A DNA stretch of 64,000 bases from Micromonospora profundi (GTDB lineage Bacteria > Actinomycetota > Actinomycetes > Mycobacteriales > Micromonosporaceae). Shown piece by piece: positions 5,461-49,998 of the stretch. The translations under genes were made by a program, and so were the position numbers. Where the stretch lies: assembly GCF_011927785.1 (NCBI RefSeq), contig NZ_JAATJK010000001.1, positions 3,753,001 through 3,817,000 on the forward strand, read 5' to 3'. The notes beneath the pieces are model-generated. The model did no database searches and was not told the origin of the DNA. It was given only the letters and a program-made list of their open reading frames with translations. How positions within the stretch are numbered: the first letter of the stretch is position 1; the number at the start of each line of letters is the position of its first letter.

Positions 5461-5466
5461 TCGGTT

Positions 5467-5508
5467 CATGCGTGAGGGCCGGGTCCACGGACCCGGCCCT
5501 CACGCATG
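5467..5508. terminator. Perfect 20-bp hairpin terminator
   Basis: Arms at 5467-5486 and 5489-5508 pair perfectly across a two-base AC spacer, starting seven bases after the sigma factor stop. It sits between convergent genes (sigma factor and acetyltransferase) and can serve both strands. Confidence 0.8.
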
Positions 5509-5566
5509 TGACATCGGCGTACCGGCCGGGTCGCTCCCCCGAAGGGCAGCGGCCCGGCCGGTGTCG

Positions 5567-7668: not shown

Positions 7669-7711
7669 ACGACTACTCCGGATGTCGAGAGGGTTGGGGG
7701 TTACCGGGGGG

Positions 7712-8338: not shown

Positions 8339-8403
8339 CGGCCCTCCCGCACGGCGTCCACAGTGTTCGCGACCGGGAAAGGATGCACCCACAGCTACCG
8401 CAA

Positions 8404-8429
8404 TGCAACTCCCAGATTTGAAAGTTGCA
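8404..8429. promoter_or_regulatory. Inverted repeat in the GPP34/XRE divergent promoter region
   Basis: TGCAACT (8404-8410) and AGTTGCA (8423-8429) form perfect 7-bp arms, with TTGAAA (8418-8423) as a possible -35 element for the rightward gene. It lies between divergent starts and is a candidate operator for the XRE regulator. Confidence 0.5.
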
Positions 8430-8476
8430 CTCCGTGCACTCGCGACCTGCGGATCTTGTCGTGTCAGACTCGGAGG

Positions 8477-9343: not shown

Positions 9344-9382
9344 CCGCATCTGTGGCACGCCGACAGACGAGAGGTACGGCGG

Positions 9383-9583
9383 ATGACGGCGCTCGACCTG
9401 ACCCGGGCGGACTGGCGCACCAGCACGCGCAGCAGTGGCAACGGAAACTGCGTGGAGGTCGCGACAGTCGACGGTCAGGTCGCCGTCCGGGACAGCAAGG
9501 ACCGCTCCGGACCGGTGCTCGCCTTCGGCCCGACAACCTGGCGCCTCTTCCTGCGGAGTCTCGGCGAGGACCAGAGAGGCTGA
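9383..9583 (+). CDS. DUF397 domain protein
   Basis: This 66-residue protein is a complete DUF397 domain, with the diagnostic WRTSTRSSGNGNCVEVA near the N-terminus and VAVRDSKDRSGPVLAF in the middle. DUF397 proteins are small partners of XRE-DUF5753 regulators, and some pairs act like toxin-antitoxin or anti-regulator modules. The ATG at 9383 lies 39 bases after the regulator stop with a weak GAGG upstream. The two genes are therefore almost certainly one operon. Confidence 0.9.
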   Translation: MTALDLTRADWRTSTRSSGNGNCVEVATVDGQVAVRDSKDRSGPVLAFGPTTWRLFLRSLGEDQRG

Positions 9584-9591
9584 GCCCTCCC

Positions 9592-9655
9592 GAGCCGGTG
9601 CGACGGCTGAGCCCGTGGAGCCGGTGCGACGGCTGAGCCCGTGGAGCCGGTGCGA
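9592..9655. repeat. 26-bp tandem repeat, about 2.5 copies
   Basis: Two exact 26-bp units (9592-9617, 9618-9643) and a partial third (9644-9655) lie between the DUF397 stop and the helicase gene. They include the possible upstream GTG start of the helicase. Each unit holds GAGCCGGTGCGACGGCTGAG. Confidence 0.85.
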
Positions 9656-9664
9656 GACTGGGCC

Positions 9665-33314: not shown

Positions 33315-34376
33315 TCACCCGCGGGGCGGCGCCGTCGACGCGCGCACGACGACCTCGGTGGGCAGGATCAGCGTCGTACGGGTGAGGGCCGGCCGCAGCA
33401 GCATGCGGACGGCCTCGGCGCCCTTGCGGGCGTGCGGCTGCCGCACTGTCGTCAGGGCCGGCGTGGCGGCCGCCGCTTCCGGTACGTCGTCGAACCCGAC
33501 GACGGAGAGCCGATCGGGGACCCCGATGCCACGGCGGGTCGCCTCGGCGACGACGCCGAGCGCCAACCTGTCGCTCATCGCCAGGATCGCCGTGGGCGGC
33601 TCGGCGAGATCCAGCAGAGGTGCTGCCGCGGCGGCACCGTCGGCCTCCTCGACCCCGCGGGCCGCCACGACGACGACACGGCCACCATCGGCGAGTACGG
33701 GCGCGAGGGTGTCCCGGTAGCCGTCGAGGCGGGCGCGGTTGGCGACGTACCCGGTGGGGGCGTCGAGACCGGCGGGCACCAGAGTCGTCTCCGAGCGCCG
33801 GGCCAGGGCGAAGCTGATCACGCCGACGCGGCGGTGGCCCAGGTCGACCAGGTGAGCTGCCGCGGAGCGGGCGGCGGCCCGGTCGTCGATGCCGACGTAC
33901 GGCTCCCCCGGCGCCACCGGGGCGTCGAGCCCGACGACCGGCAGGCGGCGGGCGCGCAGCAGCTCGCGCCGCTCGGGCTCCAGCGGGTCGCAGAAGGCGA
34001 CGAAGCCGTCCACCAGAGCATTGGGAACGATGTCCGGAAGGCCCGGCTCGGCGCGGGGAACCAGCACCAGCGAGGAGCCGTGCTCGCCGCAGATGCGGGC
34101 CACTCCGGCCGTGGTCAGTCGCGCCGCCGGGTCCTCGAAGAGGTACTGCAGGGGCTCGTGGATGATCAGCCCGACGGCACCGGTCCGCCCACTGCGAAAC
34201 GTGTTCGACAGCGGGTCAGGACCCGGGTAGCCGAGGGCCTGTGCGGCGTCGAGGATCCGGTCGCGCAGCTCGCGACTGAGCTGGTCGGGCCTGTTGAACG
34301 CATTGCTCACAGTGGCCTGACTGACGCCTACCGCCTTCGCGACGTCTCGCATCCGCGGGGGTGGAACGTTGCTCAT
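33315..34376 (-). CDS. LacI-family transcriptional regulator
   Basis: A 353-residue repressor with an N-terminal LacI helix-turn-helix and hinge helix (MRDVAKAVGVSQATVSNAFNRPDQLS, then RDRILDAAQALGY) and a periplasmic-binding-protein-like sensor (VGLIIHEPLQYLFED; DGFVAFCDP; FDDVPEAAAATPALTTVRQP). It should bind a sugar-like effector. It is divergent from an MFS transporter with ATACGTAT in the gap. It probably controls that transporter and perhaps the following aldo/keto reductase. It differs from CebR and there is no sign it acts at the cellulase operator. Confidence 0.92.
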   Translation of the reverse strand: MSNVPPPRMRDVAKAVGVSQATVSNAFNRPDQLSRELRDRILDAAQALGYPGPDPLSNTFRSGRTGAVGLIIHEPLQYLFEDPAARLTTAGVARICGEHGSSLVLVPRAEPGLPDIVPNALVDGFVAFCDPLEPERRELLRARRLPVVGLDAPVAPGEPYVGIDDRAAARSAAAHLVDLGHRRVGVISFALARRSETTLVPAGLDAPTGYVANRARLDGYRDTLAPVLADGGRVVVVAARGVEEADGAAAAAPLLDLAEPPTAILAMSDRLALGVVAEATRRGIGVPDRLSVVGFDDVPEAAAATPALTTVRQPHARKGAEAVRMLLRPALTRTTLILPTEVVVRASTAPPRG

Positions 34377-34410
34377 CTCGGAGACTCCACTGCGTTGTGC
34401 CGGCTCTCTG

Positions 34411-34421
34411 ATACGTATAAG
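34411..34421. promoter_or_regulatory. LacI operator and overlapping -10 of the MFS gene
   Basis: ATACGTAT (34411-34418) is a perfect palindrome between the divergent LacI and MFS genes. TATAAG (34416-34421) overlaps it as a -10 candidate. This would place the start of transcription at about the ATG (34430), that is a leaderless message. Confidence 0.55.
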
Positions 34422-34429
34422 TTAGCCCC

Positions 34430-35638
34430 ATGGGCGTCGATGTGGCGGACGGTGTGCGCGGCCGCACGAGCAGCGACTGGCTCGTTCCCGCGTCCGCGTT
34501 CGCGGTCAACGGCGCACTCTACGGCAGCCTGCTCACCCGCTATCCCGAGATCGCCGACCGGGTGTCCGCCAGCGAGACCCAGTTCGGTGTGGTGCTCTTC
34601 GCGGCGGCGATCGGTGGGCTGCTCGGGTCGCTTGTCGCTCCCCTGCTCGCCCGCGCGGTCGGTGAACGATCGGCCACCCTGCTCGCCGGCGCGGGCTACG
34701 CGCTGCTGGCTGTGGGTGTGGCGTGGGCGCCCCAACTGATCCTGCTCGGCGGGGCCCTGCTCCTGCTGGGTGTTCTCGACGGCGCGCACGACGTGGTGAT
34801 GAACGCTTTCGCGGTCCGGGTGCAGCAGCACCGCGCCACGACACTGATGGGCCGGATGCACGCCACCTGGTCACTGTCCCTGGCCGGAGCGGGTGTGCTG
34901 GGCACGATCGCCGCCGGGCTCCGGGTGCCGGTCGCCCTGCACGTCGGCATCGCCGCCGCGATCGCGCTTGTCGTCCAGGTGGCGATCGCCATCAGCCGCA
35001 GAGGCGTGGTGGCCGGCGGCCCACCCGCACCGGCATCGACCGGCAAACCGGCGCAGCCGCGACGGTCGAGAGGTCGCCTGCGGTACGTACTGCCGGTGTT
35101 GGGTCTGGCGGCGGTGGCCGCGAGTTACGTGGAGAGCCCTGGGCAGGAGTGGACCGGGCTCCTGCTCAGCCGCGGCTTCGACGCGACACCGCAGGTGGCG
35201 GCGGCGGCGCCGGTCCTCTTCGGCGCTGGCCTGCTCGCCTCCCGCCTGCTCCTGGACGCGGCGGTGGCCCGCATCGGTCAGGCGAGGGTCGCCACTGTCA
35301 GCGGCGCCACGATGATGGCGGCGGTCGGCGCCGGTCTGCTGTCGACGCTCGCGGGCGCGCCGGCGTGGTGGGCGCTGGCCGCGGTGGCGGTGGCCGGATT
35401 CGGAGCCGGGCCGGCCTTCCCCCTGCTGTTCGGCGCGGCGGACCACCTCAGCGTGCGGCACGGCATCGCTCCTGCCCGCACCGCGTCCATGGTGTCGGCG
35501 CTGTCCCGCGTCGGTGCGATCTCGGCGCCGATCGTGGTGGGGCCGCTGACCGACGCGTTCGGCATGGGGATGGTCTTCGCGATCATGGCGGTCGGTGCCG
35601 CACTGGTGCTGGGCGCGCTGCCCCGGGCGGTCCGGTGA
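34430..35638 (+). CDS. MFS transporter
   Basis: This 402-residue major facilitator has 12 predicted helices in two halves split by a charged loop (about residues 185-215, GKPAQPRRSRGR). Helix 1 is LVPASAFAVNGALYGSLLTRYP and the first half includes LGGALLLLGVLDGAHDVVMNAFAVRVQ, a form seen in sugar or fucose-permease-like and drug-efflux members. The ATG lies directly after a TATAAG element without a ribosome site. It is controlled with high likelihood by the divergent LacI repressor, which points to a sugar or glycoside substrate. The aldo/keto reductase gene follows after 52 bases. Confidence 0.87.
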   Translation: MGVDVADGVRGRTSSDWLVPASAFAVNGALYGSLLTRYPEIADRVSASETQFGVVLFAAAIGGLLGSLVAPLLARAVGERSATLLAGAGYALLAVGVAWAPQLILLGGALLLLGVLDGAHDVVMNAFAVRVQQHRATTLMGRMHATWSLSLAGAGVLGTIAAGLRVPVALHVGIAAAIALVVQVAIAISRRGVVAGGPPAPASTGKPAQPRRSRGRLRYVLPVLGLAAVAASYVESPGQEWTGLLLSRGFDATPQVAAAAPVLFGAGLLASRLLLDAAVARIGQARVATVSGATMMAAVGAGLLSTLAGAPAWWALAAVAVAGFGAGPAFPLLFGAADHLSVRHGIAPARTASMVSALSRVGAISAPIVVGPLTDAFGMGMVFAIMAVGAALVLGALPRAVR

Positions 35639-35690: not shown

Positions 35691-36671
35691 ATGCGGTACA
35701 CGCGGCTCGGCTCCACTGGGCTTTCCGTCTCCCGGCTCTGCCTGGGCGGGATGAGCTTCGGCGAGCCGCACCGGGGAGCCGACTCGTGGACACTGCCCGA
35801 GCAGGAGAGCCGAGAGGTGATCCGCCGGGCACTGGACGCGGGCATCACCTTCTTCGACACGGCGAACGTCTATTCCGATGGCTCCAGCGAGGAGATCCTC
35901 GGCCGCGCCCTTGGCGAGTACGCGCGTCGCGACGACGTCGTCATCGCCACCAAGGTCTTCGGCCCGATGGGGCCGGGGCCCAACCAGCGCGGATTGTCCC
36001 GCAAGGCGATCCTCGCCGAGTTGGACAACAGCCTGCGCCGGCTCCGGACGGACTATGTGGACCTGTATCAGATCCACCGCTGGGATCCGGAGACCCCGAT
36101 CGAGGAGACGCTGGAGACCCTGCACGACGTCGTCCGCGCCGGCAAGGTCCGCTATCTGGGCGCTTCCTCGATGCACGCCTGGCAGTTCGCCACGGCGTTG
36201 CAGGTCGCCGAGCGGCACGGCTGGACCAGGTTCGTGAGCATGCAGAACTACCACAACCTGATCTACCGCGAGGAGGAGCGGGAGATGCTTCCGCTCTGCC
36301 GGGACCGAGGGATCGGCACCCTTCCGTGGAGTCCGCTGGCCCGGGGCAAGCTGGCCCGCGACTGGACGGCGAGCACCCCCCGCACCGCCGACGACGCCTT
36401 CGGGCACAGCCTGTACGCCCGGACCGAGAAGTCGGACAGGGCGGTTGCGGCACAGCTCGCCGAGGTCGCCGAAAGGCGAGGGGCGCCCCGGGCGCAGGTG
36501 GCGCTCGCGTGGTTGCTGCGTCAGCCCGTGGTGAGCGCACCGATCCTCGGCGTGACGAACGTGGGGCAGCTCGACGAGGCGCTGGGCGCGCTCGATGTCG
36601 TGCTCTCGTCGGACGAGGTCGCCCAGCTTGAGCGGTGCTACGAGCCGCACGCCGTGGTGGCCCTGGACTGA
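35691..36671 (+). CDS. Aldo/keto reductase
   Basis: This 326-residue NADPH-dependent reductase has the AKR barrel. Catalytic residues appear in GITFFDTANVYSDGSSEEIL (Asp and Tyr) and VIATKVF (Lys). His lies in DLYQIHRWDPETPIEETLETLHDVV, and SPLARGKLA with a C-terminal cofactor site follows. It is of the YajO/AKR11-like kind. ATG 35691 has a strong AGGAGG seven bases upstream, which fixes the start. It is on the same strand just after the LacI-controlled MFS gene, and the two may jointly import and reduce a sugar or aldehyde. Confidence 0.92.
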   Translation: MRYTRLGSTGLSVSRLCLGGMSFGEPHRGADSWTLPEQESREVIRRALDAGITFFDTANVYSDGSSEEILGRALGEYARRDDVVIATKVFGPMGPGPNQRGLSRKAILAELDNSLRRLRTDYVDLYQIHRWDPETPIEETLETLHDVVRAGKVRYLGASSMHAWQFATALQVAERHGWTRFVSMQNYHNLIYREEEREMLPLCRDRGIGTLPWSPLARGKLARDWTASTPRTADDAFGHSLYARTEKSDRAVAAQLAEVAERRGAPRAQVALAWLLRQPVVSAPILGVTNVGQLDEALGALDVVLSSDEVAQLERCYEPHAVVALD

Positions 36672-37192
36672 CCCTCGGGTCGTCCTGCCCACTTCGTGAC
36701 GGGCGTGATCAATTGCAAGAATGCGGCCATAGTCAACACGTCATGTTTCGACTGAATGACACAGTCGTGTCGCCCGAAAGACACCCTCGATAGGTCGTGG
36801 GAATTGCATTGAATTGATGTGACCCAGATCACGGTTTAGGAAATAAACAGCTGCTCCATCAATGGTCATTACGGCTGGAGACTTGACGCCTCTGGCGCTG
36901 TGTGGAAATCTCAGGTACAGGAAGAGATCCGCCAATATCTATTACCGGGGGATTCCATGGACTGTAGCGCTACCGGGCGGTGACGCGCTCGCGGTAGGCG
37001 TTCTGGCGGCAGGTGGACCGCCTCCACAATCGCACTGAAGATCTGTTTATCGACGAGCTGTGCGCAATTGGCACGGCTGATCCGGCGCGCATTCTGCCCA
37101 CTAAATGGTGACAGAATCGCAGGCTTCACCCTGCCCGGAATGCATTCCTCGAAAGCCTCGAAGACCTGGCGCACCACAAAGGAGGGATTTCG
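36672..37192. promoter_or_regulatory. AT-richer leader region of the split-transketolase operon
   Basis: This 520-base stretch is clearly lower in GC than the genes around it and contains no supported gene. A promoter candidate is TTGATG (36814-36819), a 17-base spacer and TAGGAA (36837-36842). That would give a leader of about 340 bases before the TTG start at 37193. A short frame MDCSATGR (36957-36983) follows GGGGG and could be a leader peptide. The region may be a boundary of horizontally acquired DNA. Confidence 0.5.
36818..36833. promoter_or_regulatory. CRP-like binding site
   Basis: TGTGACCCAGATCACG is a near-perfect TGTGA-N6-TCAC palindrome, the form bound by CRP/Crp-FNR-family proteins. 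It lies between the candidate -35 and -10 elements. Confidence 0.55.
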
Positions 37193-38074
37193 TTGACCGC
37201 AAGCATCACGTACCTCGACGCGTTACCACCGGATCGTCACCCCAATCTGGTGGACGACGGATTCGAGTTGCCGTACCGGCTCTCCCGGATCGCCCAGTTG
37301 TCAAACGATGTGCGCGCACATCTGCTCAAGATGATCCATCTCGCCGGATCCGGCCACGTCGGTTCGTCGCTCTCCTGCGTCGACCTGGTCAGTGTGCTCA
37401 AGTTCGACCAGATGGACGCCTCCGGAAAGGACGTCTTCGTCCTGTCCAAGGGGCACGCCGCACCGACCTGGTACGCCGCCCTGATGGTCGCGGGCGAGCT
37501 CGACCCGGCGGAAATCGGCACCCTGCGCCGGATCGACAGCCGGCTCCAGGGGCACCCCGACCGCACCCGGCTCGACCTCGTGGCGGTGAGCACCGGGGCT
37601 CTCGGCCAGGGGCTGTCGGTCGCCCTGGGACGCGCCCAGGCGCGACGCCTGCGGGGGGCGGACTCCTTCGTCTACTGCCTCGTCGGCGACGGCGAGCTTC
37701 AGGAAGGGCAGATGTGGGAGGCCCTCATGTACGCCGGGGCCCGGGGCCTGGCCAACGTGGTGCTGATCGTCGACTACAACCGCAGTCAGAACGACGGAAC
37801 GCTCGAAGAGATCATGCCTCTGCATCCGCTACCGGAGAAGCTGCGGTCGTTCCACTGGCACGTCCAGGAGGTCAACGGCCACTCCCACCTGGCGATCCGG
37901 GACGCCGTCGCCAACGCGCGGGAGAACTGGATGCAGCCCTCCGTGATCATCGCGCACACCCGTAAGGGCTATCTGGGCCCGGGGCAGATCCTGCTGAACG
38001 GCTCACACAGCGGCGCCCTGACACCTGAGGTGTACGAGGACGCCATCAGCTACCTGGGGCAGGTGAGCGTGTGA
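37193..38074 (+). CDS. Transketolase, N-terminal (ThDP-binding) subunit
   Basis: A 293-residue protein equal to the first half of a transketolase. It has MIHLAGSGHVGSSLSCVDLV, LSKGHAAPTWYAALM and the thiamine-diphosphate motif VGDGELQEGQMWEALMYAGARGLANVVLIVDYN. Split transketolases are made of two polypeptides and occur mainly in dedicated sugar pathways rather than the central pentose pathway. The TTG start at 37193 follows AAGGAGGG. The next gene overlaps by four bases (GTGA). It should transfer C2 units between ketose and aldose phosphates together with the next protein. Confidence 0.93.
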   Translation: MTASITYLDALPPDRHPNLVDDGFELPYRLSRIAQLSNDVRAHLLKMIHLAGSGHVGSSLSCVDLVSVLKFDQMDASGKDVFVLSKGHAAPTWYAALMVAGELDPAEIGTLRRIDSRLQGHPDRTRLDLVAVSTGALGQGLSVALGRAQARRLRGADSFVYCLVGDGELQEGQMWEALMYAGARGLANVVLIVDYNRSQNDGTLEEIMPLHPLPEKLRSFHWHVQEVNGHSHLAIRDAVANARENWMQPSVIIAHTRKGYLGPGQILLNGSHSGALTPEVYEDAISYLGQVSV

Positions 38075-39021
38075 AGGCGACACGCGACTGGTTCGGGGAC
38101 GCCCTGGTGGACGTCGCCGCCGACCACGAGAACGTCCTGGTCGTCAACTGCGACCTCGCCTCGGCGACCAAGACGACCAGGTTCAAGCAGACCTTTCCCG
38201 AACGGTTCTTCGAGATCGGCATCGCCGAGGCCAACGCCATCGGCGTCGCTGCCGGGCTGGCGCAGGAGGGGTACCGGCCGTTCATCGCCAGCTTCGGCCA
38301 CTTCCTGACCGGCAAGTTCCTGGAGATCTTCCAGTCGGTGGGGCTCAACAACGCGGGCGTCGTGCTCGTCGGCACGCACGCCGGGCTCGCCATCGGCAAG
38401 GACGGCCCCACCCAGATGGGCCTGCGCGACCTGGCCCTGATGCGCAGCCTGCCCAACGTGGAGGTGCTCCAGCCCGCCGACGGGGTGGAGACCCGCGCCA
38501 TGCTGGCGTACGCCGTGACCCACGATCGTCCCATCTACCTGCGGTTGTGCCGGCAACCGCAGCGCGAGGTGCACGACCAGGACTACCAGTTCCGTCCCGG
38601 GCATCCCGACGTCGTCAGCCACGGCACCGAGGTCGCCGTCGTGACCATGGGCGCGATGGTGCCCGTGGTGCTCGACGCTGTCGAACTGCTCGCCCCGACC
38701 GGGCTGCGACCCACAGTCGTGAACGCCTCGTCCCTGCCCCTGGACGTGCCGGCCACCGGCGACCTGCTCCGGCAGTACCGGCACGTCCTGGTCTTCGAGG
38801 ACCACTTCATCCGTGGTGGCCTGATCGACGAGATCGGCCGCATCGTGCTGGGTCTCGACAGGCACATCAGGTTCCACGCCTGGGGAGTCGACGACTACGG
38901 GCAGGCCGGATCCCCTGAGGAACTCTACGAACGCTACGAACTGGACGCGCCGGGTGTGGCCAGCCGGATCCGGGCCGTGACCGGCGCCAACACCCCCGAG
39001 ATCGGAGGCAGCAAGCAATGA
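38071..39021 (+). CDS. Transketolase, C-terminal subunit
   Basis: A 316-residue protein equal to the central and C-terminal parts of transketolase. It has EIGIAEANAIGVAAGLAQEGYRPFI with the catalytic Glu that activates ThDP, THAGLAIGKDGPTQMGLRDLALMR, and a C-terminal domain ending in the VFEDHFIRGGLIDEIGR region. It begins with GTG overlapping the stop of the N-terminal subunit gene, ensuring equal production. Its own stop overlaps the bicupin start. The heteromeric enzyme would make or consume ketose phosphates such as sedoheptulose 7-phosphate. Confidence 0.93.
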   Translation: MKATRDWFGDALVDVAADHENVLVVNCDLASATKTTRFKQTFPERFFEIGIAEANAIGVAAGLAQEGYRPFIASFGHFLTGKFLEIFQSVGLNNAGVVLVGTHAGLAIGKDGPTQMGLRDLALMRSLPNVEVLQPADGVETRAMLAYAVTHDRPIYLRLCRQPQREVHDQDYQFRPGHPDVVSHGTEVAVVTMGAMVPVVLDAVELLAPTGLRPTVVNASSLPLDVPATGDLLRQYRHVLVFEDHFIRGGLIDEIGRIVLGLDRHIRFHAWGVDDYGQAGSPEELYERYELDAPGVASRIRAVTGANTPEIGGSKQ

Positions 39022-39806
39022 CGAGAGCCGACCAGCCGAAGAACCTCGCCCACGACCTCGACCACGCCCCCTACCTCTTCGTCGAGCACGAACTCGCGCC
39101 CGGGGCCGTTTCGCCGTACCGGCACCACCCCGGGGACCACCGCAGCTTCATCGTCATCGGCGGCCGGGTCCGCCTCGAGTCGCGGCACGCCGACGGCAGC
39201 GGGCACCGTGAGTACGGCTACCTGCGGGGCTGGCACGCCGAGCCGGGCGCGACCTACCGTTTCGCCCAGGTCGGCGTCGAGCCGGCAGTGGTCGTGGAAG
39301 CCGGATCGCAGACCGGGCCGGTTCACGAGTCCTGGGACGTAGCGCCCTCCGGTGCGGCCGAGACCGCCCGCTGCCGCGACGTGGACGTCTACCGCGTCGA
39401 CAAGCCGTGGGGGCACGAGGTCTGGTACACCAACAACCTCGACGGCGTCCCGTACGCCCTCAAGCAGATCCACATGACGGCCGGCCACCAGTCGTCGTTG
39501 CAGTCGCACCAGCAGAAGGTGGAGACCAACTACGTCGTCGACGGCCAGGCGACAGTCCTCAACGGCACTCCGGCCCCCCACGACACCGACGCCGTCATCG
39601 ACACCGACGCCCTCCCCCGCGCCGTGCACTCCCGCAGGTCCGGCTGGTCGTCGGCGGCGAACGTCCTGCACCGGGTGATCGCCGAATCGGACTACACCTC
39701 CGTCGAGGTCTCCACCCCGGAGCTCGACGACGTCATCAGGTGGGCCGACGACACCAACCGTGGCAACGGTCGCATCGAGGTCGAGCACGCGGGAGCGCGG
39801 GTATGA
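39018..39806 (+). CDS. Bicupin protein, sugar-phosphate isomerase-like
   Basis: The 262-residue protein contains two cupin-type barrels. The first (about 15-105) has PYRHHPGDHRSFIVIGGRVRLE. The second (about 125-230) has KPWGHEVWYT and IHMTAGHQSSLQSHQQKVETNYVVDGQA, similar to the cupin of mannose-6-phosphate isomerase and GDP-mannose pyrophosphorylase C-termini. The His-rich strands suggest a bound metal. It could isomerise or epimerise a sugar phosphate, or serve a regulatory role. ATG 39018 overlaps the transketolase stop and its own end overlaps the SIS gene (ATGA), so it is a core operon member. Confidence 0.8.
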   Translation: MTRADQPKNLAHDLDHAPYLFVEHELAPGAVSPYRHHPGDHRSFIVIGGRVRLESRHADGSGHREYGYLRGWHAEPGATYRFAQVGVEPAVVVEAGSQTGPVHESWDVAPSGAAETARCRDVDVYRVDKPWGHEVWYTNNLDGVPYALKQIHMTAGHQSSLQSHQQKVETNYVVDGQATVLNGTPAPHDTDAVIDTDALPRAVHSRRSGWSSAANVLHRVIAESDYTSVEVSTPELDDVIRWADDTNRGNGRIEVEHAGARV

Positions 39807-40462
39807 GCATCGACGACGACATCCGGCTGTACCTGGCGGAGAAGCGGGCCATCATCGACCAGTTCCCGGTCGACGCTGTGGCGGCGGCCGCGGAGATGCT
39901 GTTCCGCACGTACGACGAGGGCGGCACCGTCTACGCGATGGGCAACGGCGGCAACGCCGGCACCCTCGACCACGCCTACTGCGACTTCAAGCACCACCCG
40001 TTCGTCTCCGAGGACAAGAGCCGCCCGGTGTCGTCGGCGGTGCGGCGACTCACCTTCGTCAACCTGTGCGGTTCGTCAGCGGAGCTGAGCGGGCTTGTCA
40101 ACGACCTCGGTCCGGACAACATGTTCGCCGCGTCGCTCGAACCGTTCGCCACCGAACGCGACCTGGTGATGGCGTACAGCGGAAGCGGTAACTCCCCAAA
40201 TGTCGTACGCGCGCTGGAGGCCGCGGCGAAGGCCGGGGCGCGCACCTTCGCGATGACCAAGGGCGACGGCGGTCGCTGCCGGACGCTCGCCGACGTGTGC
40301 CTCGTCGTGCCGGGCACCTCCCGGTTTCCCGGGCAGACCGGCAGCAACGACAACAACTTCCACTTCGAGGACGCGATGCTCTCGGTCAACCACATCCTGG
40401 TCGGCCTCCTCAAGCAGCGTGTCGGTCAGGAAGCAGCCGACCGCGTCCAGGTGGCCGGATAA
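39803..40462 (+). CDS. SIS-domain protein, phosphoheptose isomerase (GmhA)-like
   Basis: A 219-residue SIS protein. The sugar-phosphate loop is AMGNGGNAGTLDHAYCDFKHH, and YSGSGNSPNVVRALEAAAKAGA is the second SIS motif. The C-terminus has NNFHFEDAMLSVNHILVGLL, parallel to the E-x-x-H...GHIL helix of GmhA. GmhA isomerises sedoheptulose 7-phosphate to heptose 7-phosphate, and the neighbouring transketolase subunits could supply that substrate. The start overlaps the bicupin gene by four bases. The exact sugar is not proven. No kinase or nucleotidyl-transferase for a heptose route is present here. Confidence 0.85.
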   Translation: MSIDDDIRLYLAEKRAIIDQFPVDAVAAAAEMLFRTYDEGGTVYAMGNGGNAGTLDHAYCDFKHHPFVSEDKSRPVSSAVRRLTFVNLCGSSAELSGLVNDLGPDNMFAASLEPFATERDLVMAYSGSGNSPNVVRALEAAAKAGARTFAMTKGDGGRCRTLADVCLVVPGTSRFPGQTGSNDNNFHFEDAMLSVNHILVGLLKQRVGQEAADRVQVAG

Positions 40463-40480
40463 CAGAACGGGGATGGTCCG

Positions 40481-41902
40481 ATGCTGACGATCAACCCGGT
40501 CCGGTCGAGACCCGTGCTCACCTCTCTCGAACGGCTCATCGGCCCGCAGCGGTCCGACCGGCTCCGGAAGGCCGCCGCGGAGATCCAGGACAGGCTGCGG
40601 GGCGGCACCCTCTGGCACGTCAACTCCACCCCGACCGGCGGTGGGGTGGCCGAGATGCTGCGCACCCTGCTGCCCCTCTACGACGAGTTGGGCGTCCGGT
40701 CCCGGTGGGCGGTGGTGAGCGGCGACGACGCGTTCTTCCGGATCACCAAGCGGCTCGGCGTGGCGCTCTACGGCAGCGACGGCGACGGGGGGCCGCTCGG
40801 CCCTGCTGAGCGTGAGGCGTACCTGCACGCCCTCGCCCCGGCCGCCGACCGCCTCGTCGAACACGTCGACCGCCGCGACGTGGTCATCCTCCACGACCAC
40901 CAGACCGCGGGCATGGCCCCGTTGCTGGCGGACCGGGTCGCGTCGGTGCACTGGCGCTGCCACGTCGGTGTCGACGAGCCCACCGACGCCTCGGAACGCG
41001 GGTGGGAGTTCCTCGCCGAACTGCTGGACGCCGCCGACTCGTTGATCTTCTCGGTGGCCGACCACGTTCCGGCCCGACTGCGCCACCGGCCGGTACGGAT
41101 CCAGCCACCGTTCATCTCGCCGTTCGACGCCAAGAACGTCGACCTTCCGGCCGACGCCGTCCGCGCGTGTCTGGCGCAGTGCGGTCTGGACCCGAACGGC
41201 GAGCCGGCGAGATCGCCACTGTCGGTGGAGACGGCTGCGGGGGGCGTCCGACTCCTGTCGACGCCGACCGTGATCTCCGACGGTGGTCGCCAGCTCGGCG
41301 AACCGCTGATCACCCAGGTGTCACGGTGGGACCGGCTCAAGGACATGGCAGGTGTCCTCACCGCCGTCACCGACCACGTACCGGTCGGGCACCTGGCCCT
41401 TGTGGGCCCGGACCCGGAAGCCATCGCCGACGACGTCGAGCAGGGCTTCTGGTACGCGGACTGCCTGGACCGGTGGCGGAAGCTGCCACCGGCGCAGCGC
41501 CGGCGGGTGAGCCTGGTCAGCCTGCCCATGGCGGATCAGACGGAGAACGCGCTGCTGGTCAACGCGATCCAGCGGGCCTCCGACGTGGTGGTGCAGAAGA
41601 GCCTCGCCGAGGGGTTCGGGCTCACCGTGGCGGAGGCGATGTGGAAGTCGCGGGTGGTGGTGGGCAGCGCTGTCGGCGGCATCCGGGCCCAGATCACCGA
41701 CGGGGTCGACGGTTACCTGCTGACCGACCCGGCGGACCTGCGCGGTCTGGGCCGCATCATCACTACCACCCTGAGCGGCGCGGTGGACCGCCAGGAGATC
41801 GGTGTACGGGCGCACCAGCGGGTGCGGGACGACTTCCTCCCCGACCGGGAGGTGACGACGACGGCGTCGATGCTGGCGCCAGAGAGGATGGTGACGCGAT
41901 GA
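40481..41902 (+). CDS. Glycosyltransferase family 4, trehalose-synthase (TreT)-like
   Basis: A 473-residue retaining GT-B transferase. The N-terminal acceptor domain has LWHVNSTPTGGGVAEMLRTLLP and LHDHQTAGMAPLL, then HWRCHVG, like trehalose glycosyltransferring synthases. The donor domain has TQVSRWDRLKDMAGVL and VVVQKSLAEGFGLTVAEAMWKSR (the E-X7-E motif). TreT-type enzymes join NDP-glucose to a sugar; here the acceptor is probably the product of the upstream enzymes. It starts 19 bases after the SIS gene with a GGGGATGG element, and its end overlaps the dioxygenase gene by four bases. Confidence 0.88.
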   Translation: MLTINPVRSRPVLTSLERLIGPQRSDRLRKAAAEIQDRLRGGTLWHVNSTPTGGGVAEMLRTLLPLYDELGVRSRWAVVSGDDAFFRITKRLGVALYGSDGDGGPLGPAEREAYLHALAPAADRLVEHVDRRDVVILHDHQTAGMAPLLADRVASVHWRCHVGVDEPTDASERGWEFLAELLDAADSLIFSVADHVPARLRHRPVRIQPPFISPFDAKNVDLPADAVRACLAQCGLDPNGEPARSPLSVETAAGGVRLLSTPTVISDGGRQLGEPLITQVSRWDRLKDMAGVLTAVTDHVPVGHLALVGPDPEAIADDVEQGFWYADCLDRWRKLPPAQRRRVSLVSLPMADQTENALLVNAIQRASDVVVQKSLAEGFGLTVAEAMWKSRVVVGSAVGGIRAQITDGVDGYLLTDPADLRGLGRIITTTLSGAVDRQEIGVRAHQRVRDDFLPDREVTTTASMLAPERMVTR

Positions 41903-42717
41903 GCACCAGCAAGCGAGGACTCGACCCGGAACAGGTCGCGGCGTTCCGCACCGACGGATACGTCATCGGCGACGGACTTCTCAAGCCGGACGCCTTTCTC
42001 GCGCTGAAGGACCACTTCGAGCGCAAGCTCGCGGCGCTGCCCGAGGGCGACCGGCCCGAGGACATGGACGTTCCACACTTCACCGACCCGGAACTGTTCC
42101 GGTGGCTGTTCGACCCGGACGTACTCGACGTGGTCGAGAGCGTGCTCGGGCCGGACATCGCTTTGTTCACGTCGCACTTCTTCTGCAAGCCTGCGGGCGA
42201 CGGCAAGAGCGTCCCGTGGCACACCGACGGATACTTCTGGCGGGAGATGATCGAGCCCGCGGGCCAGGCCATGACGATCTGGCTGGCGATCGACCCGTCC
42301 ACACTGGAGAACGGGTGCATGAAGGTCATCCCCGGCAGCCACGTCAGCGGTGAGGGCAGCTACCGGCGGGTGACCGACGACACCAGTGTCTTCGACGAGG
42401 AGTTGGACCAGAGTCGCATCGACGCCAGCCAGGCGGTCCCGGTGCAGCTGCAACCCAACCAGTTCAGCATCCACTCGGGCGGCCTCGTGCACAGCAGCGA
42501 GGTGAACCGCAGCGCGATGCGGCGGTGCGGTTTCACCATGCGGTACATCAGCACGAGCGTCCGTTTCAACCACGACGGGGTGGGCCACAAGCACCAGATC
42601 TTCCTGGCCCGCGGCAAGGACCGCGCCGGTAACACCTACGCCGATCCGAGCCGGGCGTACCCCGAGCTGGTGCAGACGCGGGGCGGCGGTCAGCGGTTCG
42701 TCGGCGCCGAGCGCTGA
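41899..42717 (+). CDS. Phytanoyl-CoA dioxygenase (PhyH) family protein
   Basis: A 272-residue Fe(II)/2-oxoglutarate-dependent oxygenase. The metal site is seen as WHTDGYFW (His-x-Asp) and the distal His in FSIHSGGLVHSSEVNRS. A 2-oxoglutarate-binding Arg is likely in the RRCGFTMRYIS strand. Many bacterial PhyH proteins hydroxylate or oxidise natural-product sugars, lipids or amino acids. As the last gene of the operon, coupled by ATGA to the glycosyltransferase, it probably tailors the glycosylated product. A hairpin terminator follows after 38 bases. Confidence 0.87.
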   Translation: MSTSKRGLDPEQVAAFRTDGYVIGDGLLKPDAFLALKDHFERKLAALPEGDRPEDMDVPHFTDPELFRWLFDPDVLDVVESVLGPDIALFTSHFFCKPAGDGKSVPWHTDGYFWREMIEPAGQAMTIWLAIDPSTLENGCMKVIPGSHVSGEGSYRRVTDDTSVFDEELDQSRIDASQAVPVQLQPNQFSIHSGGLVHSSEVNRSAMRRCGFTMRYISTSVRFNHDGVGHKHQIFLARGKDRAGNTYADPSRAYPELVQTRGGGQRFVGAER

Positions 42718-42755
42718 CCACTGATCAGCACGACGGCCCGCCCCCTGTGGCGGGA

Positions 42756-42798
42756 CCGGGTCCGGGCGCCCCGGCTCCCCCGGGGGCCCCGGACCCGG
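42756..42798. terminator. GC-rich hairpin terminator after the operon
   Basis: CCGGGTCCGGG (42756-42766) pairs with CCCGGACCCGG (42788-42798), with further imperfect pairing of the GCCCC/GGGGC segments inside. It closes the split-transketolase operon. Confidence 0.7.
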
Positions 42799-42876
42799 AC
42801 GCGACGTGCGTGAACGGACAACCTCAGTGTCCGGTCCACGTGAAGGTGGCACTAATCGTCGCGCGTGAGCAGTTGC

Positions 42877-42931
42877 GGTGCCAACTAGGCGCGGACGGCG
42901 GAAGCGTTTCCGTCCAGGTTTAGTTGGCACC
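42877..42931. repeat. Subterminal stem-loop of the mobile element
   Basis: GGTGCCAACTA (42877-42887) and TAGTTGGCACC (42921-42931) form an 11-bp stem, with GGACGG and CCGTCC pairing again inside it. The methyltransferase stop codon lies in the right arm, so the hairpin could also act as its terminator. Confidence 0.8.
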
Positions 42932-43630
42932 TTCTTGCCGGCGGTGTGCAAAGAGGACCGCTCCTGGAAGGCTCTCGTCGAGGCCGAGCAGCATCTGAGC
43001 CTTGACCGTGAATCCGGCATCGCGCAGCCAGGTCGCCATCCGGTCCGGCTGACGGCGGTGCACGTAGACCTTCATCGGATGACCGCCGTAGCCTTCCGTC
43101 TTCAGCCGTGACTCATCTCCGACGTGAAAGCCGAGCAACAGAGGTCCATCGGGACGCAGCACCCGCCGAAAGTGGCTAAGAACCGCCGGGATCTCGTCGT
43201 CGGGGATGTGGATCAACGACCAGAAGGCGAGCAGGGCAGTGATCGAGGCGTCAGCGAGTTGTAGGTCCGTCATCGAACCCACCTCGAACCGCAGGTCGGG
43301 GTGCTCCCGCCGAGCGATGTCGATCATCGCGGGTGACAAATCGACGCCGAAGGCATCGACGCCCAGCTTATGCAGGTGGGCAGTGACATGGCCTGGTCCG
43401 CAGCCCACGTCCGCCACCGGGCCACCGCCGGCGGCGTGGACCAGATCGGCGAACAACGCCAACGCCGCGAGCAGATAGGGCTCCCCAGCCAAAGCCACCC
43501 GTGTGTAGTCGGAGTAACTGTCGGCGACCGTGTCGTAGGAGATCCGGATGTCTGCCAACCAGTCGCCCGCTCGCCTGCTCCGTGACCCAGAAGTGCCGCC
43601 GCCTTCCAACCGCGTTCCGGTATCCGTCAT
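42920..43630 (-). CDS. Class I SAM-dependent methyltransferase
   Basis: A 236-residue methyltransferase with the UbiE/Methyltransf_11 layout. It has VADVGCGPGHVTAHLHKLG (motif I), VDAFGVDLSPAMIDIARREHP (motif II region), and AFWSLIHIPDDEIPAVLSHFRRVLRPDGPLLLGFHVGD (motifs around the active face). It should methylate a small molecule. ATG 43630 has GAGGAG upstream. The gene is the sole cargo of the element at 42828-43879, and its stop lies in a subterminal repeat. Its role may be independent of the neighbouring sugar operon, since it arrived by insertion. Confidence 0.87.
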   Translation of the reverse strand: MTDTGTRLEGGGTSGSRSRRAGDWLADIRISYDTVADSYSDYTRVALAGEPYLLAALALFADLVHAAGGGPVADVGCGPGHVTAHLHKLGVDAFGVDLSPAMIDIARREHPDLRFEVGSMTDLQLADASITALLAFWSLIHIPDDEIPAVLSHFRRVLRPDGPLLLGFHVGDESRLKTEGYGGHPMKVYVHRRQPDRMATWLRDAGFTVKAQMLLGLDESLPGAVLFAHRRQEGAN

Positions 43631-45870: not shown

Positions 45871-46821
45871 CTACGCGGCGGGGAGGTACTTGGCCAGGTC
45901 GTCGAGGATCTTGTTGGCGGCGCCGACGCCGATGCCGGTCATCCAGATCTCGTCGGAGACCGGGTACGCCTTGCCGGCCTTGACGGCGCCGAGGCCCTTC
46001 CACAGAGTGCCGCCGCCGACCTTGGCCTGCTCGGCCGCGGCCTTCTCGCCGTACGCGGTCACGAAGATGACGTCACCGTCGACCTCGTTGATCCGCTCGG
46101 GGCTGACCAGGTCGAAGCGCTTGTCCTCCTTGTTGGCGAGCATCTGCCGCTCGGGGCGGCCGAGGCCGGTGTCGCCGATGACGATGCCGGAGAAGGAGTC
46201 GGGGCCGTACACCCGGATGTTGCCCGGGATGAACCGCACGATGGACACCTTGCGGGCGGCGGGGTCGCCGAGGGTCGCACCGAAGTCCTTGGCCCGCTTC
46301 TCGTACGTGGCGAGGAGGTCCTTGGCCTGCTGCTCACGGCCGAGCGTCTTGCCGTCGAGGAGGAAGTTCTCCTTCCAGGTGATGCCCACCTTCTCGGTGA
46401 AGACGGTGGGCGCGATGGCGGCCAGCTCGTCGTAGAACTTCTCCTGGCGGAACTTGCTGCCCAGGATGAGGTCCGGCTTCAGCGCGTTGATCGCCTCCAG
46501 GTCGGGCTCGGTGAGGACCCCGACCTCCTTGATGCCGGTGAGCTTGTCCTCGCCGAAGTAGGTCGGCCAACTCTTGGCCTCACCGGCGGTGGCGGCGCCG
46601 ATCGGTGTGATGCCCAGCGACAGCGCCGTGTCGATCTTGTCGGTGTCGAGCACCACGACGCGCTTGGGGTCCGCCGGCACCTTTGTGGTGCCCATGGCGT
46701 GGGTGATCTCCCGGGTCTCCGCGGTGGTGGAGTTGGCGACCGGGTCGCTCTCACCGCAGGCGGTGAGTCCGACGCTCAGGGCGGCGGCCGCGGCGAGAGC
46801 GGCGACGAGACGACGACGCAT
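45871..46821 (-). CDS. Iron-siderophore ABC transporter substrate-binding lipoprotein
   Basis: A 316-residue lipoprotein whose signal ends in the lipobox LTAC (Cys near residue 22). It has a FecB/FhuD-type fold: KRVVVLDTDKIDTALSLGITPIGA, LTEPDLEAINALKPDLILGSKF and VYGPDSFSGIVIGDTGLGRP. It captures Fe(III)-siderophore outside the membrane and hands it to the adjoining permeases. It is the last gene of the four-gene operon; ATG 46821 overlaps the ATPase stop by one base with AAAGGA upstream. The iron box at 50021 should repress the whole unit when iron is ample. Confidence 0.93.
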   Translation of the reverse strand: MRRRLVAALAAAAALSVGLTACGESDPVANSTTAETREITHAMGTTKVPADPKRVVVLDTDKIDTALSLGITPIGAATAGEAKSWPTYFGEDKLTGIKEVGVLTEPDLEAINALKPDLILGSKFRQEKFYDELAAIAPTVFTEKVGITWKENFLLDGKTLGREQQAKDLLATYEKRAKDFGATLGDPAARKVSIVRFIPGNIRVYGPDSFSGIVIGDTGLGRPERQMLANKEDKRFDLVSPERINEVDGDVIFVTAYGEKAAAEQAKVGGGTLWKGLGAVKAGKAYPVSDEIWMTGIGVGAANKILDDLAKYLPAA

Positions 46822-47762
46822 CAGAGTCCTTTCGAGGGGTGCGAGATGGCGAGCGGCTTGACCGCGTCGCCAGCGGGTCGGGCGTCCGTGGTGGACGCAT
46901 CCGACAGATCGGGGTCGCCAGCAACGGCCGACGCGGCGGACGGAGCGGCAGTGGACCGCGCGGGTGGAGCGGCGGCCGGGGCGGTGCCGCCGGTGTGTGC
47001 GGGCACCACCAGGGGCGCGCCGGTGACCGGGCAGGGTACGACCACGCAGGCCAGCCCGAAGACGTCACGGACCAGGTCGGCTGTGAGGATCTCCCGGGGC
47101 GGTCCGACGGCCACCACCGCGCCATCGCGCATCGCGACCAGGTGGTCGGCGTAGCGGGCGGCCTGGTTGAGGTCGTGCAGCACGGCGACCACTGTGCGTC
47201 CGCGCTCGACGCGCAGCCGGTGCAGCAGGTCCAGCACCTCGACCTGGTGTGCCAGGTCGAGGAAGGTGGTGGGTTCGTCCAGCAGGAGGGCGTCGGTGTC
47301 CTGGGCGAGTGTCATGGCGATCCAGACCCGCTGCCGCTGGCCGCCGGAGAGGCTGTCCACCGGGCGGTCCGCGAGGTCCGCCACGTCGGCCAGGGCCATC
47401 GCCTCGTCGACCGCCGCGCCGTCCTCCGACGACCACTGCCGCCACCACCGCTGGTACGGCTGCCGGCCCCGCCCGACCAGGTCGGCAACCGTGACGCCCT
47501 CGGGCACGAGTGGGCTCTGCGGCAGCACACCGAGCCGGCGGGCGACCTCCCGGGTCGGTAGGTCGCGGATCGCCGTGCCGTCCAGCAGCACCGCGCCGCG
47601 CCGCGGGGTGAGCAGCCGGGCCATTGTGCGCAGCAGGGTGGACTTGCCGCACGCGTTGGGCCCGACGATGACGGTGAAGGCGTCGGTGGGCAGGTCCAGG
47701 TTGAGCCCGTCGAGCACGGTCCGCTCGTCGTAGCCTGCGACCAGGTCGCGGGTGGAGAGCAT
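46821..47762 (-). CDS. Iron-siderophore ABC transporter ATP-binding protein
   Basis: A 313-residue FepC/FecE-type ATPase. It has Walker A VGPNACGKSTLL, Q-loop LPQSPLVPEGVTV, signature LSGGQRQRVWIAMTLAQ, Walker B ALLLDEPTTFLDLA and switch His VLHDLNQ. A Pro/Ala-rich tail of about 55 residues follows the domain, longer than usual. ATG 47762 has AAGGAG at seven bases. GTG 47852 would add 30 residues of Thr/Val/Pro-rich sequence and overlap the permease stop (GTGA), so both starts are plausible. It powers the two permeases upstream. Confidence 0.9.
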   Translation of the reverse strand: MLSTRDLVAGYDERTVLDGLNLDLPTDAFTVIVGPNACGKSTLLRTMARLLTPRRGAVLLDGTAIRDLPTREVARRLGVLPQSPLVPEGVTVADLVGRGRQPYQRWWRQWSSEDGAAVDEAMALADVADLADRPVDSLSGGQRQRVWIAMTLAQDTDALLLDEPTTFLDLAHQVEVLDLLHRLRVERGRTVVAVLHDLNQAARYADHLVAMRDGAVVAVGPPREILTADLVRDVFGLACVVVPCPVTGAPLVVPAHTGGTAPAAAPPARSTAAPSAASAVAGDPDLSDASTTDARPAGDAVKPLAISHPSKGL

Positions 47763-47848
47763 CGCACCACTCCTTCGAGGCGTCACGGTCTGTTGCGGCG
47801 TCACGGTGCCGTGCGACGTCACGGTGCTGTGCGGCGGGCTGGGCGACG

Positions 47849-48955
47849 TCACGACGGCCGCCGCCGTCCGCGCAGCAGTAGGAAGATCAGGTACGGACCG
47901 CCGATCGCGGCGGTCAGCACACCGGCGGGCAGTTGGGTGGGCGCGAACAGCCGCCGGCCGGCGAGGTCCGCGAGCACCAGCAGCAGCGCGCCGAGCAGAG
48001 CGGCGCAGACCAGCGGCGGCCGTTCGGCGCGTACCAGCCGGCGGGCCAGTTGGGGGGCGACGAGCGCCACGAAGTCGACGGCGCCGACCTGGGCGGTGAC
48101 CATCGCGGCGACGAGCACGCCGGTGCTGGCGAGACCGATCCGGCGGGCCACCGGCCGCAGCCCGACGCCTCGTGCGGTGTCGTCGTCCAGGGCGGTGCTG
48201 TTGAGCGCCCAGCCGGCCCAGGCCAGCACGGGCAGCAGCACCAGCAGGGTGCCGGCGATCCAGGCGGCCTCGGTCCAGCCCTTGCCGGCAAGGGTGCCGA
48301 TCAGCCAGATCTGCGCGCGCAACCCGTCGATCGGGTCGGCGGTGAGCATGACCACCTCGATCAGCGCCCGGAACGCGAACGCCACAGCCACACCGGCGAG
48401 CACGAACCGCTGGGCGGCAAGCCCGTGCCGGGCGCCGAGGGCGAACAGCAGTGCTGCCGCCACCAGGCCACCGACAAGCGCGCTGGGTGCCACGAGGACC
48501 GCGGCGGCCCCGCTGGTCAGCGCAATGGTCGCGGCGAGGCCGGCGCCCTGGGTGATGCCGATGACGTCGGGGCTCGCGAGGGGGTTGCGGGCCACGCTCT
48601 GGATGAGCGTGCCGGCCACGCCGAAGGCCGCGCCGGCCACCGCGGCCAGCAGGATCCGGGGCAACCGAAGATCAAGAACAACGAGGTCGTACGGGGTGCC
48701 GGCGCCGGAGAGCGAGCGGACGACATCGGCCGTGGCGACGTACGGGGTGCCCAGGGAGAGGCTGAGCAGCATCGCCAGCAGGAGCAGGACGGTGAGCACG
48801 ACGGCGACCAGCACCGCGCGGCGGCGCACCTGGAGGCTGACCGGGCCGACCCGCAGCAGCGACCGCCCGGGCAGCAGCGTGCCACGAGCACCAGCCGGAC
48901 CAGAGGAGTCAGCCGGACCGGAAGAGTCAGCCGGGCGGTGGGTGGTGGCGGTCAC
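47849..48955 (-). CDS. FecCD-family iron-siderophore permease, second subunit
   Basis: A 368-residue permease with about ten transmembrane helices. The FecCD signature is LDLRLPRILLAAVAGAAFGVAGTLIQ and NPLASPDVIGITQGAGLAA, with VGAVDFVALVAPQLARRLVRAE (the coupling-helix loop contacting the ATPase) later. It begins with GTG 48955, overlapping the first permease stop (GTGA). The first 35 residues are low complexity with SSGPADSSGPAG repeats. It pairs with the first permease as a heterodimer. Confidence 0.92.
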   Translation of the reverse strand: MTATTHRPADSSGPADSSGPAGARGTLLPGRSLLRVGPVSLQVRRRAVLVAVVLTVLLLLAMLLSLSLGTPYVATADVVRSLSGAGTPYDLVVLDLRLPRILLAAVAGAAFGVAGTLIQSVARNPLASPDVIGITQGAGLAATIALTSGAAAVLVAPSALVGGLVAAALLFALGARHGLAAQRFVLAGVAVAFAFRALIEVVMLTADPIDGLRAQIWLIGTLAGKGWTEAAWIAGTLLVLLPVLAWAGWALNSTALDDDTARGVGLRPVARRIGLASTGVLVAAMVTAQVGAVDFVALVAPQLARRLVRAERPPLVCAALLGALLLVLADLAGRRLFAPTQLPAGVLTAAIGGPYLIFLLLRGRRRPS

Positions 48956-49998
48956 GCGGTCACCACCCGGGCGCGACGGACCAGGAAGGCCAGCAGCGGC
49001 GCGCCGATCAGGGCGGTGACGATTCCGGCCGGTATCTCGCCGGGTGGGGCGACGAGCCGGCCGACGACGTCGGCGCTGAGCAGCAGCGCCGGCCCGAGCA
49101 GGGCGGACACGGCGAGCGTCCAGCGGTGGTCCGCGCCGACCAGGGCACGTGCCAGGTGCGGCACGGCGAGCCCGACGAAGGCGATCGGTCCGGCCGCCGC
49201 CACCGCCGCCCCGGTCAGCAGCACGGCGGCCAGGCCACCGCCGAGGCGGACCAGGCCGATGCGGTGGCCTAGGCCACGGGCCACGTCGTCGCCGAGGGCC
49301 AGCGCGTCCAGTCCACGGGCGACGACGGCGGCCAGCACGAGCCCGACGACGACGAAGGGCAGCAGTTGGGCGGTGACGGTCAGGTCGCGGCCGGCGAGTC
49401 CGCCGACCACCCAGAACCGGTACTCCTCGAAGGTGCGGGCGTCGATGCTGAGCAGCGCGTACACCCCGGAGGCGAGACTGGCGTCGAGCGCTGCGCCGAC
49501 GAGTGCGAGGGTGACCGGACTCGCGCCTTCGCGGGCGCGGGCGGCGATGGCGAAGACCAGCACGCCGGCGAGGAGCGCCCCGGCGATGCCGAACCAGACG
49601 TACCCGGCGAGCGTTCCGACTCCGAAGACGGAGATGGCGAGGACCACGCCGAACGACGCGCCGGCGCTGATGCCGAGGATGCGCGGCTCGGCGAGGGGGT
49701 TGCGGGTCAGCGCCTGGAACAGCACGCCGGCCATGGCGAGTGCGAGGCCGACGGCGAGCCCGAGGGCGGTACGCGGCATCCGCAGCTCGCGGACGATTAC
49801 TGTGGCGTCGCCGCTGTCCGGCGCGACGAGGGCGTGCCACACCTGGTCGACGCCGAGTTGCCGGCTGCCGAGCGCGAAGCTGGCCAGTACGGCGAGCAGC
49901 AGCACGAGCGCGGCTCCGGCGGTGACTGCCACCCGACGGCCGGTACGGGTGCCGGACCGGCTGCGGGCCATGGCCGGCCGGCTGGCGAGGGTGGTCAC
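48952..49998 (-). CDS. FecCD-family iron-siderophore permease, first subunit
   Basis: A 348-residue permease, first gene of the importer operon. It has the FecCD pattern RELRMPRTALGLAVGLALAMAGVLFQ, NPLAEPRILGISAGASFGVVL and AAAGPIAFVGLAVPHLARALVG. The GTG at 49998 is preceded by AGGAGA. An iron box lies 23 bases upstream. A longer minus frame through both permease genes is an overlap artefact, not a fusion. Confidence 0.93.
   Translation of the reverse strand: MTTLASRPAMARSRSGTRTGRRVAVTAGAALVLLLAVLASFALGSRQLGVDQVWHALVAPDSGDATVIVRELRMPRTALGLAVGLALAMAGVLFQALTRNPLAEPRILGISAGASFGVVLAISVFGVGTLAGYVWFGIAGALLAGVLVFAIAARAREGASPVTLALVGAALDASLASGVYALLSIDARTFEEYRFWVVGGLAGRDLTVTAQLLPFVVVGLVLAAVVARGLDALALGDDVARGLGHRIGLVRLGGGLAAVLLTGAAVAAAGPIAFVGLAVPHLARALVGADHRWTLAVSALLGPALLLSADVVGRLVAPPGEIPAGIVTALIGAPLLAFLVRRARVVTA

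Follow-up and report, generated by a model that had tools for sequence, protein, structure and literature searches.

What might be made by an operon in which the two halves of a transketolase, a cupin, a sugar-phosphate isomerase, a trehalose-type glycosyltransferase, and an oxygenase are encoded one after another? The operon in question lies in Micromonospora profundi, within a stretch of 64,000 nucleotides here called the 'window' (positions 3753001-3817000 of a 6.93 Mb genome held on a single contig); coordinates below are window positions unless a locus is named. Our answer, held tentatively and at just short of even confidence, is that this locus belongs to a conserved actinobacterial cluster which makes and exports a trehalose-like, i.e., non-reducing, glucoside of an unusual sugar. 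What is observed in its favor are the identities of the genes, their conserved linkage, and the alternation of glycosyltransferases of families 4 (GT4) and 20 (GT20) beside the same core.

A first-pass annotation had described six genes at this locus, and their coordinates stand as first claimed, their family names being upheld by Pfam and NCBIfam. The genes are tightly packed and co-directional, all on the plus strand. They encode the transketolase N-terminal subunit (TKN; 37193-38074), the transketolase C-terminal subunit (TKC; 38071-39021), a two-domain cupin ('bicupin'; 39018-39806) whose C-terminal half is of phosphomannose-isomerase type, a GmhA-like SIS sugar-phosphate isomerase (39803-40462), a TreT-like GT4 glycosyltransferase (40481-41902; TreT_GT1, 130 bits), and a PhyH-type oxygenase (41899-42717; PhyH, 109 bits). 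Start and stop codons overlap by 4 bases at four of the five junctions, as had been noted, the exception being that between the SIS and GT4 genes, where there is instead an 18-base gap. The extent of six genes, by contrast, was drawn too narrowly. The unit is larger, that is, with genes for an MFS transporter (34430-35638, plus strand; MFS_1, 49 bits), which is a probable exporter, and for an aldo-keto reductase (AKR; 35691-36671, plus strand; Aldo_ket_red, 273 bits) also belonging, along with a HAD gene which is absent from the window copy.

Conservation of the Core

Relatives were sought using an SIS alignment, with one genome scanned per species and two short peptide patterns employed, and the result therefore is not a census. 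Thirteen loci were found in this way: five in actinomycetes, one in an Acidimicrobiales metagenome-assembled genome (L053), three in archaea (L054, L055, L059), and one each in Zambryskibacteria (L056), an alphaproteobacterium (L057), Pelagibacteraceae (L058), and TMED198 (L060), with several of these records being single-cell or metagenome assemblies. A further five, found by bicupin, bring the related loci to 18, among which cupin linkage was partly selected for by the bicupin search whereas transketolase linkage was not.

All 18 of these loci have both transketolase halves, and 17 of them have the bicupin. Around ordinary SIS genes (20 of 29 other-genome loci from a class-wide SIS search, approximately 10 kb to either side), the transketolase halves are seen at 3 and 2 of the 20, and the bicupin at none. 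Chance neighborhood is rejected by these counts, and the proposal of a dedicated transketolase beside an SIS isomerase is thus sustained, as an arrangement conserved across bacteria and archaea. In two of the control loci, L091 and L104, both halves of a transketolase lie nearby, possibly representing another transketolase-isomerase pairing, and a third, L095, has one half.

The full gene set is rare. Within the genus, the bicupin turned up in 5 of 160 genomes, and within the family in 6 of 354, the window's own genome being counted both times; across the phylum, 11 of 396 genomes match it, with a full-length match only in the window's own. In the class-wide SIS search, 158 of 394 genomes gave a match; among the matches listed, none other than the window's own exceeds 41% identity. 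Carriage by plasmids or phages was considered as well. SIS matches occur on plasmids (72 records) and phages (5 records), all below 60% identity and, among those listed, reaching at most 32.6%; with no close SIS relative among these records, such carriage was set aside.

Two Kinds of Partner

In the seven non-actinobacterial loci, the core lies with a nucleotidyltransferase and/or a kinase. A relative of a nucleotidyltransferase-kinase protein of 510-560 residues is present in six of the seven, with Pfam recognizing both halves in L059 and L060, the kinase half in L054, and the nucleotidyltransferase half in L057; in L056 the kinase is a separate gene. AroE-like dehydrogenases are found in five of the seven and KdsC-like phosphatases in four, and a GmhB-like phosphatase is present in L058 (141.7 bits, cut-off 178), though all of the scored AroE-, KdsC-, and GmhB-like proteins fall below their family cut-offs. 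The L058 genes for SIS, TKN, TKC, AroE-like, and GmhB-like proteins are consecutive (L058:9980-13711). In the Pacearchaeota locus L055 (1764-9957), AroE-like, KdsC-like, nucleotidyltransferase-kinase, cupin, SIS, TKN, and TKC genes lie within about 8 kb, which includes as well a 297-residue protein (3098-3988) having no Pfam match. Queries with the non-actinobacterial partners returned no match in the 11 actinobacterial loci other than the window, save for a 25% match of an SDR query in L053. An APH kinase is recognized by Pfam in L063.

The 12 actinobacterial loci, the window included, have instead one trehalose-type transferase each: GT4/TreT in seven and GT20/OtsA in five, never both. GT20 stands in place of GT4 beside the core in L048-L051 and in L063 (247 and 224 bits), and the solved-structure matches of the L048 protein include OtsA and VldE. 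On a tree of the core (TKN, TKC, and SIS together, 17 of the 19 loci), a split with support of 0.997 unites the GT20 locus L063 with L074, the window, L061, and L062. Because both sides of that split hold both transferase types, at least two transferase exchanges are implied, and this argument is independent of the separation of L052 from its neighbors, which is weak (0.54). It is this replacement of one another by two families which share the formation of an alpha 1-1 bond that is our main reason for predicting a trehalose-like product.

The window GT4 itself has TreT N-terminal and GT4 domains, matches the solved TreT structure 2x6q at E 3e-54, and is the only TreT_GT1 match of its genome, but does not reach the NCBIfam TreT cut-off (199.7 versus 775 bits). 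Of the 60 proteins closest to it, 27 come from a contig equal in length to that of an SIS or cupin protein listed in the searches, versus 1 of the next 60, equal length here serving as a proxy for the same contig. Outside of the cluster, two further GT20 proteins (approximately 480 bits) and other transketolase-like genes are present in the genome, so that the cluster should be dispensable for ordinary trehalose and pentose phosphates. Ordinary trehalose synthesis as the role of the cluster is unlikely, those two GT20 proteins being strong matches and trehalose requiring neither a transketolase nor an SIS protein.

The Cluster in Close Relatives

Three loci, L061 and L062 from the same genus and L074 from the same family, share one order: a divergent LacI gene, then MFS, AKR, TKN, TKC, cupin, SIS, GT4, PhyH, and HAD. 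In L064, also of the same genus, the order is TKN, TKC, cupin, SIS, MFS, GT4, PhyH, HAD, and AKR, while in L053 it is TKN, TKC, a cupin-SIS frame, MFS, GT4, PhyH, AKR, and HAD. That frame (L053:9227-10642) is a single one of 471 residues holding both cupin and SIS, and would tie the two activities together. AKR identity to the window is 91% in L061, 90% in L062, 77% in L074, 69% in L064, and 58% in L053, and that of the MFS protein is 83-85% in L061 and L062 and 67% in L074. PhyH, HAD, and AKR co-occur in these same 5 of the 18 loci, spanning two classes.

In all five, the HAD gene comes directly after PhyH or one gene on. In the window (42718-43630), HAD is absent and similarity to the relatives ends where it would begin; the place is taken by a minus-strand methyltransferase gene (42920-43630). 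A HAD remnant was looked for and rejected, as the sole good match of this region stops at the HAD start. Since the window groups inside of HAD-bearing loci on the core tree, loss is the simplest reading. Other HAD proteins are encoded by the window's genome, the best being 44% identical. The HAD protein of the cluster is sugar-phosphatase-like, scoring 159 bits with NF008610, short of the 282 needed.

The first-pass annotation had reported no polyketide synthase (PKS) or nonribosomal peptide synthetase (NRPS). For the window copy this stands, by eye, over the gene list from 24 to 55 kb, and none was seen by eye near L061, L062, or L053. It does not stand for the same core elsewhere. L048-L051, from Actinoallomurus and Actinomadura, have a PKS of 1,250-1,327 codons, with domains KS-AT-DH-ACP in L050, plus two genes resembling ketoacyl synthase III (KAS III); L052 has PKS and NRPS-like genes, L064 a PKS, and L063 NRPS-like genes (NRPS by eye). 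The adjacency of the core to such genes suggests a reusable sugar module. In L048-L051 (about 1-10642), the KAS III-like pair, PKS, core, and GT20 form one gene run, possibly for an aromatic ester of a trehalose analogue. For the Actinoallomurus version, brartemicin, a di-orsellinate of trehalose, is no more than a lead to the product. The producer's genome note, in the part available, calls brartemicin trehalose-derived and names no cluster genes (PMC6838623).

Transketolase, Cupin, and Isomerase

TKN finds its closest solved structure in the N chain of 6yak, a split transketolase from Carboxydothermus hydrogenoformans, and TKC finds its own in 6yaj, from the same enzyme. The GDG(E)xQEG motif is kept, H55, H88, and H121 are found in 19 of 19 sequences and R5 in 18 of 19, and H103, D111, and R161 are kept in all 18 sequences covering these positions. 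Residues matching R318, H416, D424, and R474 of human transketolase are kept also, while at the position of its serine 345 the cluster proteins have A or P. We take these residues to have their customary roles, i.e., thiamine diphosphate motif, catalytic histidines, and substrate binding. Each half scores approximately 235 bits versus 488 for the full-length family NF004559, a shortfall which is expected of a split enzyme. The bicupin barely reaches its Pfam cut-off, but structure prediction gives two cupin domains (pLDDT 89), and Q162, H164, E169, and H218 are invariant over 34 of 34 aligned sequences.

The SIS protein had been taken to be a GmhA-type isomerase of sedoheptulose 7-phosphate. 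Its predicted structure does have the GmhA fold, but it scores 63.5 bits against GmhA family TIGR00441 (cut-off 209.45) and has a conserved motif of its own around residues 173-190 which is unlike that of GmhA. Residues H64, E68, Q175, and H183 of Burkholderia GmhA, presumably its metal-binding and catalytic ones, align by eye with SIS H57, D61, E189, and H197. In an alignment of 25 sequences, likewise read by eye, D61 and E189 are invariant, H197 is kept in all but two, and H57 is not kept outside of actinobacteria, with N or G at the H64 ligand position in six non-actinobacterial sequences. Given the low score and distinct motif, sedoheptulose 7-phosphate is merely one candidate substrate.

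A Proposed Pathway and Its Alternatives

We infer every reaction of the following route, along with the 1-1 linkage and the order of steps. The split transketolase would move a two-carbon unit, yielding a dedicated ketose phosphate, to be isomerized to an aldose phosphate by the GmhA-like SIS protein together with the cupin of phosphomannose-isomerase type. The HAD phosphatase would strip the phosphate, a role for which another phosphatase would have to serve in the window's genome, and the TreT-like GT4 would join the sugar head-to-head with glucose from nucleoside diphosphate (NDP)-glucose. PhyH and AKR would modify sugar or disaccharide, and the MFS protein would export the product, under control of LacI and perhaps a CRP-type regulator. 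Progression from transketolase to isomerases to glycosyltransferase is as had been proposed earlier and is kept as a proposal, whereas how the late steps were ordered, the oxygenase coming last, was a guess.

Could the sugar instead be a plain heptose? The transketolase would then only raise sedoheptulose 7-phosphate levels, the SIS protein would act like GmhA and make a D-glycero-heptose 7-phosphate, and a glucosyl-heptose would be formed by GT4 or GT20. The GmhA fold is consistent with this, as is the GmhB-like phosphatase of L058, and the nucleotidyltransferase, kinase, and phosphatase genes of the non-actinobacterial loci parallel NDP-heptose synthesis. We nonetheless regard a plain heptose as unlikely, with the SIS score so far below the GmhA cut-off, its 173-190 motif not GmhA's, the H64 equivalent replaced in those six sequences, and a housekeeping transketolase able to supply sedoheptulose 7-phosphate. 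Alternatively, the acceptor could be something other than the transketolase-SIS sugar, such as an aglycone (polyketide or peptide) or a pseudo-sugar, with that sugar attached separately and the product not a trehalose analogue. The PKS, KAS III-like, and NRPS-like neighbors of L048-L052, L063, and L064 speak for this, but their like was not seen near the window, L061, L062, or L053, all with the same transferase, and both of the alternative transferases come from trehalose-forming families, so that we think it quite unlikely. Lastly, AKR, transketolase, and isomerases might together degrade an imported sugar under LacI control. Such a catabolic operon would fit the LacI neighbor with its conserved palindrome, the CRP-type site, the MFS and AKR genes, and the LacI matches seen also in 12 of 20 control SIS loci. 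A glycosyltransferase in 12 of 12 actinobacterial loci together with several PKS neighbors is biosynthetic in kind, however, and in L053 and L064 the set occurs with no LacI match beside it; we deem catabolism improbable.

Various points weigh against the trehalose-like glucoside as well. Product and activities are here predictions, and relatives of TreT and OtsA can change acceptor, as with VldE, a pseudo-glycosyltransferase likewise matched by GT20. Being closely related, L048-L051 amount to a single case, and neither they nor L052 have a HAD, PhyH, or AKR match. Two sequence types are represented among the MFS genes, with no match between that of the window, L061, L062, and L074 and that of L053 and L064. 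The window copy, without HAD, may be decaying or may use another phosphatase. Among control loci, finally, L102 has a GT4 match and L090 an AKR match (1 of 20 each).

A broader reading, possible if somewhat doubtful, is that the core represents a cross-domain route to an undescribed sugar phosphate. In archaea and marine bacteria this would undergo nucleotidyl activation, probably on the way to surface glycans, and in actinobacteria a trehalose-type coupling would lead to exported, variously decorated trehalose analogues. If true, then one compact module would explain a sugar in organisms as distant as Micromonospora, Nitrosopelagicus, and Pelagibacter, and the joint presence of bicupin, SIS, and split transketolase would serve as a genome-mining handle for non-reducing sugar natural products. 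The cluster, that is, may point to a sugar product still awaiting discovery. Only a few enzymes are involved, and what they probably act on can be bought, so that direct in vitro identification of the sugar would be feasible.

Regulation and Flanking Genes

A probable regulator of the LacI family (33315-34376; Pfam LacI, Peripla_BP_3) is encoded divergently, on the minus strand, and its gene occupies the same place in L061, L062, and L074 (74-89% identity). A LacI-type palindrome, CTGATACGTATAAG, lies upstream of the MFS gene (34408-34421) as a possible operator; it is kept in L061 and L062 and is perfect in L074. A CRP-type palindrome, TGTGA-N6-TCAC, lies in the leader upstream of TKN (36818-36832), is kept in L061 and L062, and has one change in L074. 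With 3 mismatches allowed, the LacI-type pattern is contained in 5 of 100 shuffled windows, and the CRP pattern by itself in 23 of 100. The argument for both thus rests on conservation and position rather than on rarity of pattern.

TKN, the first listed gene of the operon, starts with TTG, preceded by AGGAGGG. A pattern scan of the locus found neither a terminator nor a sigma-70 promoter. The terminator earlier placed at 42756 stands as a hairpin, that is, folding predicts a stable G+C-rich one on the plus strand (42756-42798), but there is no U-tract, and it is a possible terminator. Farther downstream, on the minus strand (45871-49998), are genes which by eye resemble those of an iron-siderophore ABC transporter: a binding protein, an ATPase, and two permeases.

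Comparison with Known Systems

That the genes match no known cluster, as the first-pass annotation had it, is borne out insofar as no description of such a cluster turned up in full-text literature, open-licence papers being those covered. Individual parts do have counterparts. Both chains of the C. hydrogenoformans split transketolase are the best solved matches of the window halves. The window GT4 is like the trehalose synthase TreT in its TreT_GT1 domain and in its match to solved TreT, but differs in being tied to the transketolase-cupin-SIS core and in falling below the NCBIfam equivalog cut-off. GT20 enzymes, as typified by OtsA (trehalose-6-phosphate synthase) and VldE, are the partners of this core in L048-L051 and L063, whereas the window uses GT4. 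No sugar-phosphate cyclase, as in C7-cyclitol clusters of the validamycin or acarbose type, is present among the ten locus proteins scanned with Pfam. Trehazolin, apramycin, and everninomicin were also among the known compounds considered in relation to the cluster.

Judged by analogy, the nearest known parallels appear to be NDP-heptose synthesis and the lincosamide octose route. The GmhA/HldE/GmhB pathway shares with the cluster an SIS isomerase and, with the non-actinobacterial loci, also a kinase, a nucleotidyltransferase, and a HAD phosphatase. The cluster differs in its dedicated split transketolase, its phosphomannose-isomerase-type cupin, and an SIS protein lying outside of the GmhA cut-off, and the kinase and nucleotidyltransferase families of the pathway differ from those of the cluster loci. 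The lincosamide pathway employs the transaldolase LmbR, then the isomerase LmbN, and proceeds to GDP-octose (PMC12945683). There too an enzyme transferring two or three carbons is followed by an isomerase within a natural product cluster, the likeness of LmbN to the SIS protein being by description. Neither a transaldolase nor a nucleotidyltransferase is among the ten locus proteins scanned. As so described, then, the lincosamide route differs from that proposed here in using a transaldolase rather than a transketolase, and GDP-octose rather than a trehalose-type coupling.

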